From IMG/VR virus record IMGVR_UViG_3300033148_009018, positions 1-27,008 of that record: a stretch of DNA of 27,008 bases. One strand, given 5' to 3'. Positions 1,994 through 25,751 of this stretch are shown one piece after another (position 1 is the stretch's first letter; each line of letters opens with the position of its first letter). The notes under the pieces were generated by a model, which was not told the origin of the DNA, did no database searches, and saw only the letters and a program-made list of their open reading frames with translations. Position numbers and translations under genes: made by a program. Source of the stretch: a virus.

Positions 1994-2440
1994 TTACAAT
2001 TTTGATTGCTCTATTGCAAGCCAATTAAATATTTTTGAAATATGGGATTTACCAGCAATTTCAATAATTGAAAACATTTCAGCATCCATGGTAATCCATT
2101 GTCCTTCTGAAGCCTTCCATGAAGTTAAGAATGATGGATTGTCTCTAAAAGTATCCTTTAGCTCTCTGTAAGCAATTCTTGCATTATTATCGTAATCAAA
2201 CAAAATACCGTTAACTTCAAAACCTGCATTCAGTTTTTCTTTCTTTTTGATATTTAAGATTTCAAGTTTTAAAGTTTTGATAACATCATTATTGGTTATA
2301 TCCATGGAAATATTTTTATTTCTATAAATTTTATATTGATAAAAAACAGATTCATCAATAGTAACCTCTTCGATATCATAAGGAACCATAATGCAATTTT
2401 GAAGTTTTTTTATTTCTGGATAAATATCTGATTGAACCAT
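1994..2440 (-). CDS. DUF4376-like tail-associated protein
   Basis: The product is 148 residues. The C-terminal part, about 73-140, contains GFEVNGILFDYDNNARI, then TSWKASEGQWITMDAEMF, and a final helix with W140. This is the pattern of the DUF4376 domain found at the C-terminus of many phage tail-fibre-adjacent or assembly proteins. The start at 2440 has AAGGA 9 nt upstream and overlaps the 3' end of the RT gene by 65 nt. A second ATG at 2389 would shorten the overlap to 14 nt. Its position directly after a DGR and its tail-fibre target suggests a tail-fibre assembly or attachment role, which is inference. Confidence 0.7.
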   Translation of the reverse strand: MVQSDIYPEIKKLQNCIMVPYDIEEVTIDESVFYQYKIYRNKNISMDITNNDVIKTLKLEILNIKKKEKLNAGFEVNGILFDYDNNARIAYRELKDTFRDNPSFLTSWKASEGQWITMDAEMFSIIEIAGKSHISKIFNWLAIEQSKL

Positions 2441-3498
2441 ATTTTATATTCCTTTTAAGTAAAGGGTTTTTGATATTATTTTCTTTGCAAATAGTTTTAA
2501 AAATAATTTTCATTTCATTATCAATTATCATATTCCACAATCCATTATGGTTTGCATATGTCAACCAACCATAATAACTCATTACAGTATTTATTATTTC
2601 TGTATATTTTAATTCCCTCCAATTCTTTTTTATATTTTTAACTTTTCTATAAAATGAAGTGACAATATCTTTTCTTACATGCACTTTATTATGAAAAAAT
2701 ACATAACCTAAAAAATCAATCCCATGTTCTTTTACAGGAAATACTTGGAAATTGCCTTTTAATTTTAATTTAAGTTTTTCATTAAGAAATATTTCTATTT
2801 CTTTTCTTAATGAATGTAAATAATTTTTATCATTATGAAGAATTAAAAAATCATCACAATATCGGGCATAATATTTAATTCTTTTTTCGTGTTTTATCCA
2901 GTAATCTAATGGTGATAAATATAAATTACCAAAGTATTGTGATAAATAATTTCCAATAGGAATGCCTTTAGCAGAATCAATTATAACATCTAATAACCAT
3001 AATGTGTTTTCACATTTTATTTTTTTCCTTATTATTGTTTTTAATATTTCATTATCAATACTTGGATAGTATTTTCTAATATCCATTTTTAAACAATATT
3101 TTGTTTCTTTTTTATTCGAGAGAAATTTTTTCATTCTTTTTACACCATCATGTATCCCTCTATTTTTTATAGCTGAATAAGTATCTCTTATTAAAATACT
3201 TTTCCATATAGGTTCTAATATATTCATGATAGCATGTTGGACTATTCTATCAGGAAAATAAGGGAGTTTATAAATAACCCTGTCTTTTTTTCCTTTTTTA
3301 ATAAAGATTTCATATTCAGAATTTATGAAAGTTTTATTTTCTAACTGTTTTTTTTATTTCTTGTAAATACTTTTTAGGATTTTTATTTATTTCCTTTACA
3401 GAAGAATAATGTTTTTTATTCTTCTGTGCATTTATATGTGCTGTTCTTATATTTTCAGAAGAACAGATTTTAAAATATAAATTACCATGACGTTTCAT
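2376..3498 (-). CDS. DGR reverse transcriptase, frameshifted in an A8 tract
   Basis: The catalytic part runs 3227-2376 (283 codons). It has the strand-A Asp in KMDIRKYYPSID, the DGR-specific IGNYLSQ motif, where most retroviral and group II RTs have a Q-G, and the active site YCDD in ARYCDDFLIL. Upstream of its first ATG the same frame continues open with LPYFPDRIVQHAI, a conserved DGR RT block. The true N-terminus (MKRHGNLYFKICS..., ATG 3498) is in another frame and ends at TAA 3334-3336 after 54 residues. The frames join if the coding A8 tract (3348-3355) is read as A7, giving a 373-residue protein, a normal size for DGR RTs. D139, SQ186-187 and YCDD213-216 are numbered on this repaired protein. 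The role is to copy TR RNA into A-mutagenised cDNA for the VR. Confidence 0.93.
3348..3355 (-). other. A8 homopolymer at RT frameshift point
   Basis: T8 on the plus strand is A8 in coding sense, in the context GAAAT-A8-CAG. In the N-terminal RT frame it reads ata aaa aaa aca and meets a stop soon after. Removing one A restores KKQLENKTF and the rest of the RT. A -1 ribosomal slip would hit TAG after two codons, so only +1 slippage or loss of one A in DNA or RNA repairs it. Confidence 0.85.
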
Positions 3499-3609
3499 TT
3501 ATTTTCCATTTATGTCTTTTAAGAAATTTTCGGGTTACCTACTAACTTCTGTTGTGTGACATCCTATTCTGGCAAGAGCCAAAGTAAATATAAAAAAGTT
3601 AATTTTTAT
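3499..3609 (-). ncRNA. DGR TR-RNA 3' spacer between TR and RT
   Basis: This is a non-coding stretch between the TR and the RT start. In characterised DGRs the region just downstream of TR is part of the template RNA and is needed for cDNA priming. Here AGACATAA (minus sense, plus 3510-3517) is complementary to TTATGTCT at the 3' end of TR (plus 3610-3617). The spacer could therefore fold back on the template end. The RT start at 3498 has only a weak GGAAAA ahead of it. Assignment as template-RNA spacer is by position and homology to known DGR layout. Confidence 0.5.
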
Positions 3610-3740
3610 AGACATAATCCTACCCTGAGAAGTGATATTCGAATTACGATTAGTAGAAGAATTATTCGCATTGAAATTACAGAGACCTGATTTCAGTCCA
3701 TTCGAAAGATTCCCACCTGATTTCATAATCTGCTAATCAC
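3610..3740 (-). repeat. DGR template repeat (TR)
   Basis: This 131-bp segment aligns without gaps to the VR at 3769-3899, offset 159. There are 26 mismatches, every one a T on the plus strand of TR, that is an A in coding sense. TR has 39 such adenines. Read in the VR frame, TR is rich in AAC/AAT Asn codons (CNFNANNSSTNRNSN), the standard DGR design: mutating the first two bases yields many residues but no stop codon. Similarity breaks at both ends (3609 and 3741), which fixes the limits. Confidence 0.96.
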
Positions 3741-3765
3741 AATTATATTTACTTGTAAAAAAATT

Positions 3766-6604
3766 TTAAGACATAACCCCACCCCGAGAAGCGACAGACG
3801 AATCACGATTAGCAGAAGAAGTACTCGCAGCGAAAGTACAGAGACCCGACTTCAGCCCAACCGAAAGATGCCCACCCGAAGTCATAAGCCGCCAATCACC
3901 ACTTGTATTATAATGATAACCATAAAAATATGTAGAAGAAGAACCACCCAATGTTTTAGGATATAAAGGAGCATAGTTTCCTTCTCCATAAACACTTTTT
4001 ATATAACCATCATTATCCCCAAAAGCAGGGGCTTGCAGGGGCTTGTCCTGTATCCATATAATTAATTGCAGTATTATCAGCAAAGTTTAAGTAATCCGTA
4101 GAAGTATAAACTTTACATAAACCAATTGTATTATCAATATTTATCCCATCTATAATTTTCCACAAATGTCCAAATATATTTTCTATTCCTAAAAAAGAAT
4201 TAGCAATATATTTATCCGCTGCAACTATTCCTGCCAAATCAGAATCAGTAGTTCCTAAAGCAACTAAAATAGAACCATCAGTATTACCTAATCCCAATGT
4301 TCTTCCTGTATTACGTACATAATCATAAGAATATGTAGAAGCATCCGTATACCCTGGAAGAGCTGTTTGAGAGTCCCACGTCCCATATTTAGTTACAAAC
4401 AAAGCAGTGAGACTTTGATAACTGCTCCAACTTTGTTGATGTGTGTTTCCACCTCTATTTCTATATAAAACTCTAAAATCAGGACGTGTTTGATATGCCC
4501 ATGGCTTAAATCCAGGCAATGATCTTATAGAATCATTAGCATTATCAGCACTGGAAGTACCATCACCAGTAATTACTGCCGATGCAGAATCATCGTATAA
4601 AACACCTTCAAAACAATCATAATAATAAAAATCTTTTCCGTTAAAATGAGGAGGTACTATTGCAGTATAGCCATTAAAAGAAAAAGCAGAAAATGAAACA
4701 AGCACATACATATAGGTTTCGTCTCTACACCACAACTCATAAAACTTAGGACTTTTACTATAAACATCACCAGCAGTACCGTCAAAAGTTGCAGCGGTTA
4801 CACCATCTTGTAAATAATTTGAATCAGATGAATTGAGATAATGTTCTTCACCTGTAATACAATCTTTCAATACTCTACTATGGGCATTTTGTATTGGGTA
4901 ATCTGTATATTCAGACTCAACAAATATACCGTTTACAATAACACCTTTTGTTATTACATCGGTTGTTTCATTATAACGAATTCCATATACATAATCGTTT
5001 GTGATTGGGACACCACTAATAGTCAACCCAACAAATTCAGGAGTATCAGTTGTTGATACACCTTGATTTTCATTTTCAAATGCTGCAAGTATTTCTGCAT
5101 CTGTTTGGTCTGCTGTAGCACCGTCCTCAATATTTAAAATAGTACGAACTTCAGAAGCAGTCAGGTTATCTGCATTCCCAGTTGCTTTTTTACCAAGAAT
5201 TTCAGAAGCACCGAGGGTTACTTTCGTAAAAGTACCTGCCTCTGTACCAACCATAACTTCATCAGCAGCAGTAAATTCAGAATCTTTAATGTATTGGGGA
5301 TGGTCATCATCTTCCAAACCAGTTAAATTCCCATGGTCAGAAGCAGACGTACCGGCAAATTTAGTATCTGTAATCATTTGAACCAATGCAAAAGAACCAC
5401 CAGCTTTCGGTGTGACAACTTTTCCTATGAGAATCCCAAAATCAGTTAAATGCGTTGGTTTATCAGGTTCTTCTGCTGATTCAGCTTCAGCAAGAGATCC
5501 ATTACAAGAACCATATATAACATAAACATCGCCATCATCAATATGTCTATAAATCCAGAAACAAGCAAATTTCGCATTATTAACATCTGCAAGCGTTCCC
5601 GAACCATCGTCATAATGTGCAAAATCAATTGTGTTTCTTGCTGCCCCTTCTGTAAAACCAGTTCCAGGGACATCACCATACACAGGTATAAAAGTTACAG
5701 AAGCAGAATTATAAGAATTTAAATCGTATGAATTAACACCTCCATATACACTACCCACCTCCATAGTAAAATTATTTGTTCCTGAATAGGCAATTGCAGA
5801 ACCACTTGCTAAAGTATGATTATGCAGAGTCATTATTCGTGTATGAAATTTTTCAGGTGCATCTTGGAAATTATAACCACCAGAAATAAAATGAACATTG
5901 TCACTGGAATCTTTCATTACTTTTCCAATGGGAATCTGTGTTCTATCAGGTGAAGATGTCCTTGTATAAGGATTAGTGGTATCTAAAACAATCTGCGGAG
6001 TACCACCATTGTAATCTAAACAAATAAAATATGTGGTATCTGCTGCTGTTATTGCCTGGTTGTCTTGTTCTGCTAATGTTTCGTAAGAAAGAACACCCAG
6101 AACGTCATCTGTAATCCTGAGAAGCGAAGTCAATGCGGCAACTTTAAATGTACCGGCATTAGTTCCTTCTGAAATTTCTCCACCAGAAATAATCATTGGT
6201 GAATCTACATGAGCATTAAGAAGAGAACCAACCTTTGTTTTTTCCTCTTCAGTTAAATGCCAAATACCACCTTGCAAATCAGATAAAGCATTATGCAAAA
6301 CTTCACTGATAGGGATATTCTTATTTATGATAGTCCAGTCTGTTTCTAACGTAGGATCATCTTTTTCTGATATTAGGACATCCTCAACTTCTAAAACGGC
6401 TGTGAAGAACGTTCCTGCTACTGTGACAGTATACATTTCCCCTTTCATTATCCCGGAAGGGGAAGTATCAAGATCGGGAGTGTTTGTATCAGCATTGTAA
6501 CCACCTTCATAAGTCACACCTCCAGCAATTTGGGCAGCAACATAAGCTTCCAATTTGCCTTGTGAAACAGAAGGGGTTTTTGTTTTTATTCCAGAATGCA
6601 TCAT
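3766..6604 (-). CDS. DGR target: tail fibre with C-type-lectin-like variable domain (frameshifted)
   Basis: The frame from 6604 runs 863 codons to a premature stop at 4013. An overlapping frame (from 4083) carries the C-terminal domain and VR down to TAA 3766. They join if one copy of a 10-bp tandem duplication (4025-4044) is removed: MDTGQAPA then continues FGDNDGYIKSVYGEG. Repaired length is about 942 residues. Features include a fibre-type N-terminus, the phage-fibre motif DHGNLTGLEDDDHPQYI near the middle, and a large C-terminal lectin-fold domain (IENIFGHLWKIIDGINI, then GDWRLMTSGGHLS) that displays the variable residues for receptor binding. SD AAGGAGG lies 2 nt from ATG 6604 and 5 nt from ATG 6601, so 6601 may be the true start. 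Confidence 0.92.
3769..3899 (-). repeat. DGR variable repeat (VR) at 3' end of target gene
   Basis: The VR is the diversified partner of the TR. In coding sense the 26 changes are 16 A-to-G, 7 A-to-C and 3 A-to-T; no G, C or T of the template is altered. It encodes the last about 43 residues of the target (SGGHLSVGLKSGLC...) and ends at the stop codon TAA 3766-3768. The coding 3' end is G-rich (CGGGGTGGGG) where TR has CAGGGTAGGA. That is the position of the IMH (initiation of mutagenic homing) site, where VR and TR normally differ and which marks VR as recipient. Confidence 0.96.
4025..4044. repeat. 10-bp tandem duplication breaking the DGR target
   Basis: GCAGGGGCTT occurs twice in a row (4025-4034 and 4035-4044), followed by one more matching G. 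Ten bases shift the frame; the upstream frame then ends 5 codons later (SPCFWG-stop). With one copy the frame reads straight into the VR-bearing domain. Confidence 0.95.
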
Positions 6605-7244: not shown

Positions 7245-9938
7245 TCAAAATAAAAATTCTATTTTTGTCAATTCATCATCAACAAGATTTTCAATTGCTA
7301 CTCTCAAATCATTGTTTGCAGGTAATTCAAATGGGTTTAAATTCATAGGATCAGGTGGAGTTCCTGTATCTTTTCCTGAAAAAACATCCCAACTTTTTAT
7401 GGTTTCGTCCGTTGTTTCTGTGCCATCATCATGAGTTGGTCCTCTGGTGATAGTTCTTATTTCTCTTACGTTTTGAGCCGCAACAATCATATAAGGATTT
7501 TTACTATCAACAATCAGGCTTTTTAGTTTAAATTCTGAAGATAGTAACTCCTCTTCTACATGGTCAAGTCCATCTATTTCTGACCCTGAACAAAGTCCAT
7601 AATCAATATATTCGTAGTTATCTATTGAATATATTCCATTTATATCAACAGATATATCAAAATCTATATCCTCCCCTTCAGAAAATGGTGATTTTATCTC
7701 ATAAACATAAGAATATTCTTGTACATCTTCATAATATTTATATGGGCAAGTAAGCCATTTCATTCCGATATCACAAAACTCAAGAGGTATTGTATAGCCC
7801 CATTTATCACTCACAAAGGTGTCAGCGTTTTTGCTAACCAGAACACCCCTTATACCACCAACATTTGACAATGATGTAAGTTCATGTGATTTGCAGTTAG
7901 CATCATCCACAACAGCAGGGTATTCAAAAGTTGATGTGTTGATATATCCCTGGTACGAAGCCTCTCCTTCAGTTTCCCTGGTGTAATATAATATAACTTC
8001 ATCGCCATTTTCATCAAAAACTTCGATTTCGCCTAACCAGTTACCAATTGACCTATTCGGGTCGTAAGAGGGAAGACAAACACCATTACCTGTATATGTA
8101 ATCCCGCCGGTCCAAATAATATCATCTTGTATCTCTTGGCTTTGAATTGCATTAGACCCAATGGCTGTTAGTCTACTTTTGAAATTGGTAATATTGCTAA
8201 TTTCAATAGGCCAACTTACTATTGTCTGACCATTATTATCTTTTATATTTTCAGCATAATTATTTAATTCCATATCCCAAAAAAAACAATCTCCATGATT
8301 GCTTTCGCAATATAAATAACCATCACCACATATTTTTATCTCATCAGGAAAACCAATTATTTTAAATTGGGAAGTGTCACCTGATTCAGGTGCTTGAACA
8401 ATAACTTGATCACCATCAGTAAAAGCACCTGCTCCACCAGCAACATCAGTAATAGAACCATCACAATAATAAAAAATTGGAACATCATCTTGTACTTCAC
8501 CTGTTGATGTTGTTACTGTGGCAGTATCATTATCATAATCAATATTTGAGATGATAGATTCATAAGTTATCATATCAAAAACTTCTTCAAAATTTATAGC
8601 GGAATCTAAGTCAATAGCATCTTCGTAAGGAACAGCGCATTCGGTATTCATTGGCCCTTTAAAATTAAAAGGAACGATTCTGTAATTCCCATCATAAGTA
8701 CTATCACCATCCCCCCAACTTTTATAACCAAAAACTTGACAATAGTAATAATAACCATCAGCCCCTATTGCAACCCCTATGCCTATTTCTTCAAATATAG
8801 TATTTATTATATTTGCTCTATGTCCAGGTGAACCCATCCATTCATCTACTACAACACTTGGTTGATAATATCCTGCCACATTTTCCCCTGCTAAATAATC
8901 TTCTCCCGATACGTAACCATCAGAATAATTTGAATCTTCAAATCTTGATGCTGTGGTAGATCCATCAGATCCATCATGCGAAACAAATGTATTCCGTGCC
9001 ATATCATCAGCATGTAGTTGTGCCATTGTATTTAATTTAGAATTTATTGTTAACGGATCTAATCCAAGTAATACTCTTTCGCTATTAGTATCAGTAAAAA
9101 CTGTACTAACTGAAGATGAATTATCGGAAGAAATTCCAGAGGAACCATACATTTGTTTATTATCTTGATCCGGGTCTAATGTTAAAGTAACTGTTTTCAT
9201 TAAATAAACCCATTTACCAACTTGATAGTCATAAAAATCTGTAGGGATTATATTTGTTATTATATCACCGAAAACTTCAACAGAATAACGGACATCAACA
9301 CCTTCTCCAGTTTTGCCTGTAATCCATCCACCAGTAAACAACGGTGTATCATACGGACATATCATTGATAATGATGTAAATGTCTTGCCATTTACTCTAA
9401 GTTCCCATTTAAGAGATAAATATTCCCCAGGTCTAACTATGGGTTGAGTCTCTATATGTGTATATGTTTCAGGAACAGTTCTTTCCCAAACACCCGAAGA
9501 ACTTTCAGGGATTTCTCCTAAATTAAAGCCATCAGAGAAAAAGTTTTTAACAATGAATGGGTAATGTTCAGTTATTTCACCTGAATTTTTTGCACTTACA
9601 GTTGAATTTCCCCAATATGATTCAGCCCTTCTACCATTTACAGGATTTTTAAATTCTATTGTTATACTTGATTGAGGTGAAATTTTATCAGAATTTTCAA
9701 ATTCAATATAGGTTCTTTCCCAACTTATGTAAGGACTATCTGGTCCAAAAACAGCATGAACATAATTATCAACAGTTTTTCTAAGTAAAATTTCAATATT
9801 TATATCTGAATTTGCTGCATTTACTGGGAGCATCGGTATAGCAATGCCTCCATCTTCTTGAGTAAATGCAGAAGAAACAGTTTTATTTTCAATTGTTGTA
9901 GGTTCTATTGAACTTAAATGAATTGTAAAATTTACCAT
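7245..9938 (-). CDS. large tail/adhesion protein with embedded CAP/SCP domain
   Basis: The start chosen is ATG 9938 (MVNFTIHLSSIEP), just after the upstream stop; the frame is open back to 9971. The product is 897 residues. Residues about 280-402 form a CAP domain (SCP/PR-1/YkwD type). In order it has LLGLDPL, the helix LNTMAQLHADDMA, the FVSHDG loop, GENVAGYY, WMGSPGHRANII and GIGVAIGADGYYYYCQVFG. The His and Glu residues of the CAP site (HADD, SHDG, GEN, GHR) are present. The flanks are beta-rich, with sequence such as VQDDVPIFYYCDGS and GDQVIVQAP typical of tail/baseplate hub or spike proteins. CAP domains are known as secreted proteins, and their use on a virion is unusual. The gene belongs to the minus-strand tail unit. 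Confidence 0.8.
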   Translation of the reverse strand: MVNFTIHLSSIEPTTIENKTVSSAFTQEDGGIAIPMLPVNAANSDINIEILLRKTVDNYVHAVFGPDSPYISWERTYIEFENSDKISPQSSITIEFKNPVNGRRAESYWGNSTVSAKNSGEITEHYPFIVKNFFSDGFNLGEIPESSSGVWERTVPETYTHIETQPIVRPGEYLSLKWELRVNGKTFTSLSMICPYDTPLFTGGWITGKTGEGVDVRYSVEVFGDIITNIIPTDFYDYQVGKWVYLMKTVTLTLDPDQDNKQMYGSSGISSDNSSSVSTVFTDTNSERVLLGLDPLTINSKLNTMAQLHADDMARNTFVSHDGSDGSTTASRFEDSNYSDGYVSGEDYLAGENVAGYYQPSVVVDEWMGSPGHRANIINTIFEEIGIGVAIGADGYYYYCQVFGYKSWGDGDSTYDGNYRIVPFNFKGPMNTECAVPYEDAIDLDSAINFEEVFDMITYESIISNIDYDNDTATVTTSTGEVQDDVPIFYYCDGSITDVAGGAGAFTDGDQVIVQAPESGDTSQFKIIGFPDEIKICGDGYLYCESNHGDCFFWDMELNNYAENIKDNNGQTIVSWPIEISNITNFKSRLTAIGSNAIQSQEIQDDIIWTGGITYTGNGVCLPSYDPNRSIGNWLGEIEVFDENGDEVILYYTRETEGEASYQGYINTSTFEYPAVVDDANCKSHELTSLSNVGGIRGVLVSKNADTFVSDKWGYTIPLEFCDIGMKWLTCPYKYYEDVQEYSYVYEIKSPFSEGEDIDFDISVDINGIYSIDNYEYIDYGLCSGSEIDGLDHVEEELLSSEFKLKSLIVDSKNPYMIVAAQNVREIRTITRGPTHDDGTETTDETIKSWDVFSGKDTGTPPDPMNLNPFELPANNDLRVAIENLVDDELTKIEFLF

Positions 9939-9942
9939 ATCA

Positions 9943-10725
9943 TTAATCCACAGGAACCGTAAAAGAATCATTATTTAAATAATCAACATCGGAATCAAAA
10001 TATGATGTAGCTGTTGTTTTTATATCATAAGTTTCTCCAGTAGAACAAATTCCTTGAATTGTAATTTCCCCTTCTGCATTAGAAGTACCAGTAAAAAGAA
10101 CAATACCTTCTTTAGAAAGTTCTATTGTGGCATCTGGGATAATATCATCAGACATTACATCTTTAATAGTTAATGTAATGTCTGTTATAATCCCAATACC
10201 TCCAGAATAATCAACTGATATATCTGCATACCCATACAGATCAGAACCAACCATTACAAGTATCTCTTCATCTGATAAATTAGAAGGAGCAGTTAAACAT
10301 AAACGATCAAATTCAATTTCATAAGTGCATTTTAAAATAGCTAATGCAGAAGAGGGAATAGTGATAACATTTCCAGATATTAAAACAGAACCAGCACTCC
10401 CAGCACTCCATTCTGTAGAAATACAACCTATTGGCATGTATGATAAAGAAGCTGAAGTAGTATTTTTAAATGATAAATATTCCACAATTTCTTCAACATT
10501 ACCCTGATTTACTTTTTTACAAGAACCAGAAGATATTTGAATTGTATATGGTTCTACACTATAAATTGGACGTACTTTTAAATACACCAATTCATTTATA
10601 GAAAAAGATATTTTTTCAATTCCATATAAAGATACATGGTATTCACCATCAAGTTCTAATTCCGCTGAAAGATCAGAAGATGTGCTTTCAGAAGAAAAAT
10701 TTGTAGTAATATATGAAGATGTCAT
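9943..10725 (-). CDS. tail structural protein with C-terminal Ig/CarboxypepD-like domain
   Basis: The start chosen is ATG 10725 (MTSSYITTNFSSEST), where GGGAT from the preceding gene's end acts as a weak SD; the frame is open to 10746. The product is 260 residues. The C-terminal 75 or so residues (ITDITLTIKDVMSDDIIPDA, then GEITIQGICSTGETYDIK) follow the repeat of carboxypeptidase-regulatory/transthyretin-like beta-sandwiches: v-x-D-x-x-x-g-x-P-I-x-n-A-x-V, then G-x-x-x-x-x-x-T-x-x-x-G. The N-terminal part is beta-rich and unknown. Virion adhesion or baseplate decoration is inferred from neighbours. Confidence 0.7.
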   Translation of the reverse strand: MTSSYITTNFSSESTSSDLSAELELDGEYHVSLYGIEKISFSINELVYLKVRPIYSVEPYTIQISSGSCKKVNQGNVEEIVEYLSFKNTTSASLSYMPIGCISTEWSAGSAGSVLISGNVITIPSSALAILKCTYEIEFDRLCLTAPSNLSDEEILVMVGSDLYGYADISVDYSGGIGIITDITLTIKDVMSDDIIPDATIELSKEGIVLFTGTSNAEGEITIQGICSTGETYDIKTTATSYFDSDVDYLNNDSFTVPVD

Positions 10726-11263: not shown

Positions 11264-11516
11264 TTTTAAAAACCTCCAATACGTTATTTGAATTTCCTAA
11301 TCCAATTGTAATTCCTACAATATAATATTTTCCATGAGGTGATTTATTAAGAATTACAGTATCACCAACTTTAATTGTTTCTGATATAGCAGAATTTACT
11401 CTTCTAATTAATCCATTTACAGAAACTTTAAATTCCCCAGTAGAACCTAATCCGGTTACTCTGGAAATTGTTACTTCCTTTTTTTCATTTGAAAATAAAT
11501 TATTTATATTTGCCAT
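11256..11516 (-). CDS. small beta-barrel tail protein (86 aa)
   Basis: ATG 11516 overlaps the end of the 587-residue gene by 13 nt. The product is 86 residues. KKEVTISRVTGLGSTGEFKV is followed by ETIKVGDTVILNKSPHGKYYIVGI. The pattern of a V-G-D-x-V-x-L-x turn and a tyrosine-rich strand suggests a small OB/SH3-like barrel, as in spike or baseplate OB domains. No named family can be assigned. Confidence 0.65.
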   Translation of the reverse strand: MANINNLFSNEKKEVTISRVTGLGSTGEFKVSVNGLIRRVNSAISETIKVGDTVILNKSPHGKYYIVGITIGLGNSNNVLEVFKNG

Positions 11517-13267
11517 TTTTTTATTTCCATTTTATTAACAACTTTTGGTCCTGAAATAGAAATACTCGAATCCATTATTTGATAATTCCCAGGGGTAATT
11601 CTATCAGTTTCAAACCAAACAATCGAACCATCATTAATATCTTCTAAGAAAGGAGATTCAAAAGTTATTATTTCGTTATCATATTTATTTGAATCAATCC
11701 AGATTTCACCTCGTTTAATTAATGTTGCTTGACTTGTCAAAAGACTGGTTGTTATTTCATCCCCTTCTTTGTCAGAATCAATAGGAGCTGTTATAACTTG
11801 TACAGAAGAAAGAAATGTACTTTGTATCTCAAAAATTATTAAAAGCTCTTCTACGCTATGCTCTGATACTTTATAACGATAATATTCGGAATCATAAGTT
11901 ATTTCTGCAAGACAAGTATCCTCATTCTCTAAAATAATATCTGTTGAATATTGATCCCAGGTTAAAATTGCACTACCTCTTCCAAGCCATGAAATTTCTT
12001 TTAAAGTTCCTAATATTGGATAACTGGAAGAACCATAACCATTAATAAAAGTTATTATTTCTGTTACTTCATAATTATCTTTATTTAAAAAAGTAATAGA
12101 ACCATCTGTTTGATCTTGTATTAAAACAGATGGTTCAATTGAAGGATCTTCATAATAAAAAGCTCTTATATATGTTTCTTCTCCAATAATTCTGGAATCA
12201 CCAATAGTATCCTCAACTTCAAGAATCGGCGCAACTTTATCATTTGTGTCAGCAGTTACAGTGACAATATTATAACCTTCTTTTTTTTCTTCTGAATAAT
12301 CAACACCATAAACCATAGCAGATGAATAAGAATGAATTGAACTTGCTATTTTAACATCAACAGGTCTTACAGGAAAAGGATATCTAATATATAAAGAACC
12401 ATCGTCATTTGCTCTAATAATAGCACCGATTTCAGAAACAATTTCTTGTATGATTTCAATAGGTGTTCCTGTACTTTCATAATTATCTGGAAGCATCCAA
12501 TCAAGAATATCCCAATTAATTACGGTATAAACAACCAATGATTCACATAAATCTTTAGCTGAAGTCCATTCAGATAAAGAAACAGAAACAGAGGAAGCCC
12601 ATGGAGAAGATTCTTTTGCGGTAATATCCCTGCCCCAATAAGAAACTGTACCTTCAAAAGTATGTGTTCGTTCTTCAAGAAGGAAAAACATAACGGAATT
12701 TCCAATATGCACCTCAATTCTCATTTCCCCTTGAAGATTTGAGGGATCTGCTTTGTCAAATAAATCTTGAGATATTGAAGAAAAACTTATTGCATTATGT
12801 ATATTACTTTGATTTTTTTCAATAGTGATTTCTGAACTAATCAAACTTGAAATATCTGTTCCATCTAAATAAATTTTATAATCAATAGATGAAAATTGAG
12901 TAGGAATTTCATAAAGAGAACCAAGTAATTTTTGAATTCCAAAAAGATCTGATAAATTGGATACATCATTGATAATTGCCTGGATTGATTGTTCAGCATC
13001 TGACAATATTAATTTTATTACTTCCGTGTCTTGTTTTCCTTCTGATATAACGCCTTGTAAGCTTGATACAGCTTGATTTAACTCTATACTGCTATACAGA
13101 TACTCATTTGAAAGTAAAGGGTCTATATTAATCAATTTTAAAATAACTGATTGAACATCTTGAAGTCCTTCCGAGATGGTGATCAGCGAAGCTGATACAC
13201 CATTCTCCAATTGACTTGAACTTAAAACTGATTGGATTGATTTAATAATCTCATTTTGATTGAACAT
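11504..13267 (-). CDS. tail/baseplate protein, 587 aa (probable 3' part of a split gene)
   Basis: ATG 13267 has GGAAGG 8 nt upstream; both lie inside the downstream copy of an 80-bp direct repeat. The product begins MFNQNEIIKSIQS. Residues about 14-38 are identical to the C-terminal end of the 376-residue protein. The N-terminal 110 residues are helical with Gln/Leu/Ser heptad-like spacing. The rest is beta-rich (IYLDGTDISSLISSEITIEK at about 130-150), resembling baseplate hub or receptor-binding proteins of siphophages with a T4-gp27-like fold; that comparison is tentative. A deletion between the repeats would fuse it in frame to the upstream ORF. Confidence 0.72.
   Translation of the reverse strand: MFNQNEIIKSIQSVLSSSQLENGVSASLITISEGLQDVQSVILKLINIDPLLSNEYLYSSIELNQAVSSLQGVISEGKQDTEVIKLILSDAEQSIQAIINDVSNLSDLFGIQKLLGSLYEIPTQFSSIDYKIYLDGTDISSLISSEITIEKNQSNIHNAISFSSISQDLFDKADPSNLQGEMRIEVHIGNSVMFFLLEERTHTFEGTVSYWGRDITAKESSPWASSVSVSLSEWTSAKDLCESLVVYTVINWDILDWMLPDNYESTGTPIEIIQEIVSEIGAIIRANDDGSLYIRYPFPVRPVDVKIASSIHSYSSAMVYGVDYSEEKKEGYNIVTVTADTNDKVAPILEVEDTIGDSRIIGEETYIRAFYYEDPSIEPSVLIQDQTDGSITFLNKDNYEVTEIITFINGYGSSSYPILGTLKEISWLGRGSAILTWDQYSTDIILENEDTCLAEITYDSEYYRYKVSEHSVEELLIIFEIQSTFLSSVQVITAPIDSDKEGDEITTSLLTSQATLIKRGEIWIDSNKYDNEIITFESPFLEDINDGSIVWFETDRITPGNYQIMDSSISISGPKVVNKMEIKKWQI
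13148..13227. repeat. 80-bp perfect direct repeat, copy 1
   Basis: This is identical to 13257-13336 (period 109, with 29 unique bases between). It lies inside the 587-residue ORF. It contains a hairpin at 13178-13201 (GGTG-ATCAGC-GAA-GCTGAT-A-CACC) with a one-base bulge. Confidence 0.95.
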
Positions 13268-14381
13268 CTTGAAGTCCTTCCGAGATGGTGATCAGCGAAG
13301 CTGATACACCATTCTCCAATTGACTTGAACTTAAAAGTGTTTTGTTTGAAATAAAAAAATCATTTAACAAAACACTTATTTTGTTTGCTTGTATATAAAA
13401 GGAGGTTCTGTCCTCATAAACACCTTTTACTTCATTAATTAAACTTAAAGCATTTTCTAAGTAAGTACCATATTGATTTAATAAAGAAAAAATTTGAGTA
13501 TCTCTAAATGAATTTATTACTTCAAATTTAGAAGAACTGCCTAATCCTGTATTTAATTTAAAATCAGCAAGAATGTACTGATATACTCTGGTTACTTCTA
13601 AAATAGAATTTAAAATAAAATCAGAAAAAACACCTACTGCAAGAACAGGTTCTTGTATAATTGATAAAGAATTAAATTCAATAGAAGGAATACAAACTCC
13701 AGTAAAGTTTGTAGAAATATTATTTGTTATATTAAAAGAAGGAATCCCTAATTCAAAATAAATGTCTCCTTGAAAAGAATTAATAGAAGTAAAATCAGCA
13801 GTAGTTGTATAAGAAAAACCAGAAGAAACTATTTCTGATAAAGAATTAAATTCAATAGAAGGAATACAAATTCCAGTAAAGTTTGTAGAAATATTATTTG
13901 TTATATTAAAAGGATTAGAAGCCGCTTCAAAATGAATACTGCTTTGTAAAGAAATAATAGAAGTGAATTCATTTACAATATTAATACCTAAAGTAGTTGA
14001 AATATTATTTATTATTGTAAATTCAGGAGGAAATAATAATTGAACAACACGGATCACACCAACATCAATATTATTTGTTATTATAAATTCAGGCACACCA
14101 ATAAAAATATCAATAGAAGACAATATTGAGCTTGTTGTGATAATTGCTGGAACCATTATTTGTATAGGAACAGAAGCTTCAAAAATATTACTTATTGAAA
14201 ATGGCTCAGGTTTTACTATGTCCCCCCAAAAATCAATTCCACTAAATATATTAGAAACAACAAAATCAGGTGGAAATATAAAAGGCTGCTGAGGAAAATA
14301 CAAAACATCCTTTGCAGGATTTGTATATCCCGATGTAAGTTGAAAATCTACATTATTGGATGCTGGTGCACTGTATGCCAT
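13251..14381 (-). CDS. repeat-rich tail protein, 376 aa (probable 5' part of a split gene)
   Basis: ATG 14381 has AGGGG 6 nt upstream, overlapping the previous stop. The product is built from short strand repeats of the form F-x-I-x-N-N-I-S/D: FVVSNIFSGI, FSISNIFEAS, FIITNNIDVG, FTIINNISTT and FNITNNISTN twice, a likely beta-solenoid or stacked-sheet fibre. A 58-residue unit is duplicated with near-identical DNA (13663-13738 and 13837-13912). It ends in a helical segment (SSSQLENGVSASLITISEGL) shared with the next protein, stopping after GLQDVQSK. It overlaps the next gene by 17 nt. The role is structural; no family is known to me. Confidence 0.7.
   Translation of the reverse strand: MAYSAPASNNVDFQLTSGYTNPAKDVLYFPQQPFIFPPDFVVSNIFSGIDFWGDIVKPEPFSISNIFEASVPIQIMVPAIITTSSILSSIDIFIGVPEFIITNNIDVGVIRVVQLLFPPEFTIINNISTTLGINIVNEFTSIISLQSSIHFEAASNPFNITNNISTNFTGICIPSIEFNSLSEIVSSGFSYTTTADFTSINSFQGDIYFELGIPSFNITNNISTNFTGVCIPSIEFNSLSIIQEPVLAVGVFSDFILNSILEVTRVYQYILADFKLNTGLGSSSKFEVINSFRDTQIFSLLNQYGTYLENALSLINEVKGVYEDRTSFYIQANKISVLLNDFFISNKTLLSSSQLENGVSASLITISEGLQDVQSK
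13257..13336. repeat. 80-bp perfect direct repeat, copy 2
   Basis: This copy spans the junction of the two ORFs. It carries the C-terminal codons of the 376-residue protein and, in another frame, the SD and ATG of the 587-residue protein. The same hairpin lies at 13287-13310, just upstream of that SD in the direction of transcription. Confidence 0.95.
13663..13912. repeat. 76-bp in-frame internal repeat (174-bp period)
   Basis: 13663-13738 and 13837-13912 match at all but one base (C/T). The period of 174 bp equals 58 codons, so both copies are read in frame as FNITNNISTNFTG(I/V)CIPS and onward. It encodes the duplicated strand unit of the 376-residue tail protein. Confidence 0.9.
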
Positions 14382-24980: not shown

Positions 24981-25751
24981 TTATGGTTTCAACAACAATA
25001 CATGTTTCCATGATTGTTTTACGTATAATCTTCTTATATGAGAATAAGAAATATTAAATTCCTTTGCTATTTTTTTACATTGTTTTGTACGACTTTCCTC
25101 TTTAAAAGATTTAAACTTACGAAATCTTTTTCTTATTTCAACTACTTTTTTTCTTGTTAATTTGCTATTTCCTTGTTTCTCCCCTTTTGCATCCCTTCCT
25201 TTTCTAATTTTATCATCCATATTATCTTGAGGTGTTCCAAGAAATAAATGATCAGGGTTACAACAAGATGGATTATCACATTTATGAAGAACATACATTC
25301 TTTCTGGTATTTCACCAACAAATTCTATATACGAAGCTCGGTGGGATCTTTCATTTTTCCCCTTATAGGCAATTTGACCATAACCATCTTTATCTTTGCC
25401 TTTTTGCCATTCCCAACAATTTGTTTTTTCGTTCATTTTAGTATTATATTTTATCCGTTCTTTATAAGATAATTTTAAATACTTATTTCTATTTGTTGGT
25501 TTAGAAGTTCCATATTTTTGAAAACGTTGGTAATGCTTAGAACAAAGATTTTTATAAATGGGTTTTGCAGTACAACCTTCATATATGCAAATATCTTTTT
25601 TATCGCCCTTTGTTAATTTAAGTCTTTTTATAGAACCATCTAACAATCCTTTCCTATAATGTGTTCTGCAATGCCCCCTTATTATCACAGGAAGATTGCA
25701 CCCTTCTTTTAAACAAATAGTTTTTATTAATTTACGTCTTTTTTTACTCAC
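24981..25751 (-). CDS. free-standing HNH homing endonuclease
   Basis: The product is 256 residues, starting at GTG 25751 with a perfect AAGGAG 6 nt upstream. The N-terminus has two tandem C-x4-C-x8-C-x2-H units (CLKEGCNLPVIIRGHCRTHY and CIYEGCTAKPIYKNLCSKHY), likely zinc-binding. The nuclease core is NCWEWQKGKDKDGYG, then RSHRASYIEFVGEIP, VLHKCDNPSCCNPDHLFLGT and NMDDKIRKGRD, the HNH_3-type beta-beta-alpha-metal site. A basic C-terminal helix-turn-helix-like region follows. It interrupts the usual tube-to-chaperone gene order without disrupting a coding frame, so it is intergenic rather than intron-borne. It is AT-richer than the tail-tube gene upstream. Confidence 0.93.
   Translation of the reverse strand: MSKKRRKLIKTICLKEGCNLPVIIRGHCRTHYRKGLLDGSIKRLKLTKGDKKDICIYEGCTAKPIYKNLCSKHYQRFQKYGTSKPTNRNKYLKLSYKERIKYNTKMNEKTNCWEWQKGKDKDGYGQIAYKGKNERSHRASYIEFVGEIPERMYVLHKCDNPSCCNPDHLFLGTPQDNMDDKIRKGRDAKGEKQGNSKLTRKKVVEIRKRFRKFKSFKEESRTKQCKKIAKEFNISYSHIRRLYVKQSWKHVLLLKP

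Follow-up and report, generated by a model that had tools for sequence, protein, structure and literature searches.

We analyzed the whole of a 27,008-bp stretch of viral DNA (IMG/VR record IMGVR_UViG_3300033148_009018; hereafter the window) that carries a diversity-generating retroelement (DGR) on its minus strand. In coding order, the locus holds a target tail protein gene, a variable repeat (VR), a template repeat (TR), and a reverse transcriptase (RT) gene. The target ORF (4013–6604, 863 codons) matches the tail protein family phrog_5302 and stops ahead of the VR, while the C-terminus encoded by the VR lies in a separate frame of the ORF list (3766–4083) that is out of frame with the rest of the gene. 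The VR (131 bp, 3769–3899) reaches as far as the target's stop codon, and the TR (131 bp, 3610–3740) is noncoding. The RT gene is spread over two frames, i.e. a 54-aa N-terminal part (3334–3498), assigned to phrog_1423 by a profile match and by alignment to phage RTs, and a main part of 325 codons (2376–3353). These meet at a run of eight adenines on the coding strand (A8; 3348–3355). A second contig, IMGVR_UViG_3300033143_005437 (the sibling; L003, L015, and L016 in our numbering), is 99.9% identical to the window over 13,256 bp, and differs from it only by two SNPs and by the lack of a 10-bp duplication. No near DNA relatives of the window were found among annotated phages.

The TR and VR differ at 26 of their 131 bp, and all 26 mismatches (16 A>G, 7 A>C, and 3 A>T on the minus, coding strand) fall on template adenines, of which the TR has 39, while the non-A positions are identical (92 of 92). 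The hypergeometric chance for all 26 mismatches being on A is about 4e-18. The initial annotation had described two 131-bp repeats, 28 bp apart, with 26 differences that were all at template adenines (39 in total), and our recount returns exactly these figures; its reading of adenine-specific mutagenic retrohoming is supported by the same pattern. The 28-bp spacing is at the short end, yet not unusual, as VR and TR lie 27 bp (L086) to about 1350 bp apart among the relatives listed.

A search for a second VR, as initially proposed, found none in the window or in the whole sibling contig. When the non-A positions of the TR were scored at every position of both, the known VR matched at 92 of 92 and the next best site at 44 of 92. 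A DNA-identity search for repeats returned the TR itself as the sole match, and is too strict for detecting VRs. Two further repeat pairs recovered by an A-tolerant search (13145–13336 and 13662–13912) were rejected as DGR repeats; with 0–3 mismatches, they are plain duplications. The pair at 13662–13912 consists of in-frame repeats with a 174-bp spacing within ORF 13251–14381 that encode NITNNIST-type protein repeats. At 13148–13336, an exact 80-bp repeat (109-bp spacing) links the 3′ end of the same ORF with the 5′ end of ORF 11504–13267. The sibling contig terminates exactly inside this 80-bp repeat (window position 13256), which may reflect a true duplication or else a seam in the assembly.

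The RT contains IGNYLSQ and YCDD, in agreement with the (I/V/L)GxxxSQ and YxDD motifs of the DGR clade, and the DGR-type RT named by the initial annotation is borne out by profile searches. Specifically, a profile built from the RT and five phage relatives has PDB 8ub7 ("Reverse transcriptase") as its best match (E 1e-73), far above group II intron RTs (best 1e-31) and DRT RTs. We take 8ub7 to be the DGR RT of Bordetella phage BPP-1. The phrog_1423 RT family matches the window RT with an E of 2e-98. None of the NCBIfam models exceeded its own cut-off for the RT, and a peptide-pattern search of bacterial and archaeal genomes yielded no confirmed relatives.

The element was initially called complete, but its RT gene is split in both the window and the sibling, with the N-terminal part in one frame (3334–3498) and the remainder in another that is open from 3353. 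When both parts are aligned on five phage RTs, they join at the A8 run without any other gap or length change, and the gene has acquired no further stop or frameshift. The RT ORF reported at first (2376–3227, 283 aa) is only a part of it. As the main frame has its first ATG at 3227, downstream of the conserved LPYFPDRIVQHAI segment and inside the finger region, this ORF alone would be without part of the fingers. An RT in working order would occupy one open frame, which is the case in neither contig; this bears on the activity of the DGR, not on its ancestry.

Among 80 related IMG/VR loci, the RT N-terminus and core are found in a single ORF in 74. The sibling, with the same break as the window, is one of the remaining six, and the other five (L058–L062) have in-frame stops only, so that a frameshift reading of these was rejected. 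In these five, the RT genes (at about 500–1400, 2112–3011, or 3001–3900) contain several in-frame stops and are otherwise conserved. The stops resemble recoded stops as in crAss-like phages, which suggests that L058–L062 come from phages with reassigned stop codons that bear the same DGR family. A 13-pair stem-loop is present in the 5′ coding region of the window RT (3397–3428), about 45 bp upstream of the A8 run (1 found vs 0.1 expected from shuffles).

A 10-bp tandem duplication at about 4036–4055 (edges ambiguous by a few bases) is the reason why the target ORF of the window stops short of the VR. The sibling does not have this duplication and encodes an intact target of 942 aa that ends in the VR (L015: 6653–9481). 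Therefore, an intact target exists in the population, and the window copy is out of frame. As such, the fiber gene with a VR at its 3′ end, as first annotated, holds for the sibling, where the VR encodes part of a C-type-lectin-like domain, but not for the window, where the 863-aa ORF goes no further than 4013, leaving the VR in the 3766–4083 frame.

The last 403 aa of the target were modeled using the sibling sequence along with 23 relatives (pLDDT 81, pTM 0.87), with low confidence at the tip encoded by the VR (pLDDT 50–73). The first six Foldseek matches of this model are the DGR variable proteins TaqVP and Mtd, with only TaqVP passing an E of 0.001. With VIA-align, the best structural match is also TaqVP of Thermus aquaticus (5vf4; Z 23.6, 269 residues, rmsd 3.1, 14% sequence identity), and formylglycine-generating-type C-lectin folds and Mtd are found at Z 10–12 (Mtd about 10). 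No non-DGR family ranks above TaqVP in the VIA-align list. The C-terminal domain of the target is thus predicted to fold like the DGR variable proteins TaqVP and Mtd, and this supports the tail-tip target proposed by the initial annotation. To our knowledge, TaqVP is not a phage tail protein.

An A-only TR/VR pair is present in 66 of the 80 related viral loci, all 66 with the order VR–TR–RT. When relatives with near-identical TRs are compared, the differences between their VRs are mostly at TR adenines, i.e. 16 of 16 for L061/L062, 9 of 9 for L051/L055, 18 of 19 for L038/L039, and 19 of 21 for L028/L029. This DGR family is therefore diversifying in nature. In the VR comparison proposed at the outset, these relatives vary mostly at A columns. 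The window and the sibling, which are the only contigs available for this phage, share one and the same VR. C-type-lectin VRs and broadly active DGRs have been described (PMC8144416).

The one-strand order target–VR–TR–RT is that of the "lineage 3" DGRs of crAss-like phages (crAssphage LMMB and relatives, with CLec3 targets), for which this layout has been described along with the lack of an avd gene (PMC7290462). Our element also shares with these a tail protein target, a VR at the very 3′ end, and an RT of phrog_1423, to whose crAss-like members it is about 44–50% identical. It differs in that the RT is out of frame, as is the target in the window, and in that the present phage belongs to another lineage, which is AT-rich and has a tail module of its own. 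Avd (PF05635) had no match at E 10 in the window or the sibling, both of which are fragments, and the control was positive in only 2 of 14 genomes. The DGR of Bordetella phage BPP-1 (target Mtd, RT brt) is similar in its A-specific TR-to-VR changes, its DGR RT, and the C-type-lectin-like fold of its target, but here no Avd and no accessory gene between target and RT are found, and the target is only remotely similar to Mtd.

The DiGReF survey includes DGRs in which frameshifts, stops, or insertions disrupt the RT although VR and TR still differ at adenines only, and it concluded that the losses had either happened recently or were sequencing errors (PMC3521204). One of these, from Bacteroides sp. 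9_1_42FAA, has a frameshifted RT and an adenine-only VR/TR pair, and was read as a very recent inactivation or a sequencing error (PMC3521204, Fig. 4). By contrast, the RT break is shared here by a near-identical second contig, and in the window the target is broken as well. The present case fits the survey's description of such DGRs.

The initial annotation was right to recognize a genuine DGR here, and the element is of a known kind; we consider it probable that it is a standard Avd-less target–VR–TR–RT phage DGR that was active until recently and whose RT is now disrupted. Past mutagenic retrohoming is indicated by the A-only pattern. With an intact RT, reverse transcription of the TR RNA would have misincorporated bases opposite adenines, and the resulting cDNA would have taken the place of the VR at the 3′ end of the tail-tip gene, altering binding residues on a C-type-lectin-like domain. 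A later frame break at the A8 run in this phage population would have frozen the VR, and the break in the RT frame suggests that retrohoming is probably off at present. In the window copy, the 10-bp duplication would additionally cut the VR domain off the tail protein. Since the RT has no other stop or frameshift and the VR is free of non-A changes, the RT, if dead, died recently. The identical VR in both contigs is compatible with a silent RT although, with n = 2, also with chance or shared origin. The initial statement of a phage that diversifies its receptor-binding tip is thus not supported for this copy, given an RT broken in both contigs, a target broken in the window, and a VR that is the same in both.

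That the TR and VR are chance repeats, or the outcome of ordinary gene conversion unrelated to a DGR, is vanishingly improbable. We found nothing in its favor, and it is refuted by the A-only statistics, by the DGR-type RT that adjoins the repeats, by the same layout in 66 relatives, and by the DGR-protein fold predicted for the target. It is less improbable, yet still unlikely, that the DGR works fully in nature, with at least one of the two frame breaks being an error of assembly or sequencing. Apart from the breaks, the cassette is intact, as the RT has no further stops and the VR no non-A changes; the 10-bp duplication is missing from the sibling, and therefore either contig may contain an assembly slip. 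The sibling also ends exactly in the longer repeat near 13256, and therefore repeats trouble these assemblies. However, the RT break is common to both contigs, which are two SNPs and a 10-bp indel apart and are therefore not copies of one assembly, and their identical VR gives no sign of ongoing diversification. Both frame breaks are probably genuine.

Slippage of transcription or a ribosomal frameshift at the A8 run could also yield the RT from its two frames, with DGR activity being low or switchable, but this seems very unlikely to us. The two frames overlap only around the run, and both parts are conserved. However, a context of A AAA AAA C would favor −1 ribosomal shifts, and the −1 frame is closed at this position, which rules out a productive −1 frameshift. 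Bacterial RNA polymerase is able to slip on A/T runs, but that of E. coli requires at least 7 T, and even more A (PMC6260861), such that A8 is marginal. Furthermore, the sibling aside, no such frame break exists among the 80 relatives, L058–L062 having in-frame stops only. It is likewise highly doubtful that the run acts as a switch, whereby slippage during DNA replication or transcription would toggle the tail-diversifying machinery on and off in the population.

Under the favored reading, i.e. recent activity followed by disruption of the RT, the locus adds one more phage DGR to the thousands known. Its only extra value is in the pair of near-identical natural contigs with a frame-broken RT and a still clean TR/VR trace of earlier activity, which would capture a DGR in the course of being lost or silenced.

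Elsewhere in the tail module of the window, a 908-aa protein (7245–9971) contains an internal CAP/SCP domain (PF00188, residues 295–413, E 3e-18), which is unusual cargo for a phage structural gene. An HNH endonuclease (HNH_3; 24981–25751), likely a free-standing homing endonuclease, is located between tail-module genes.
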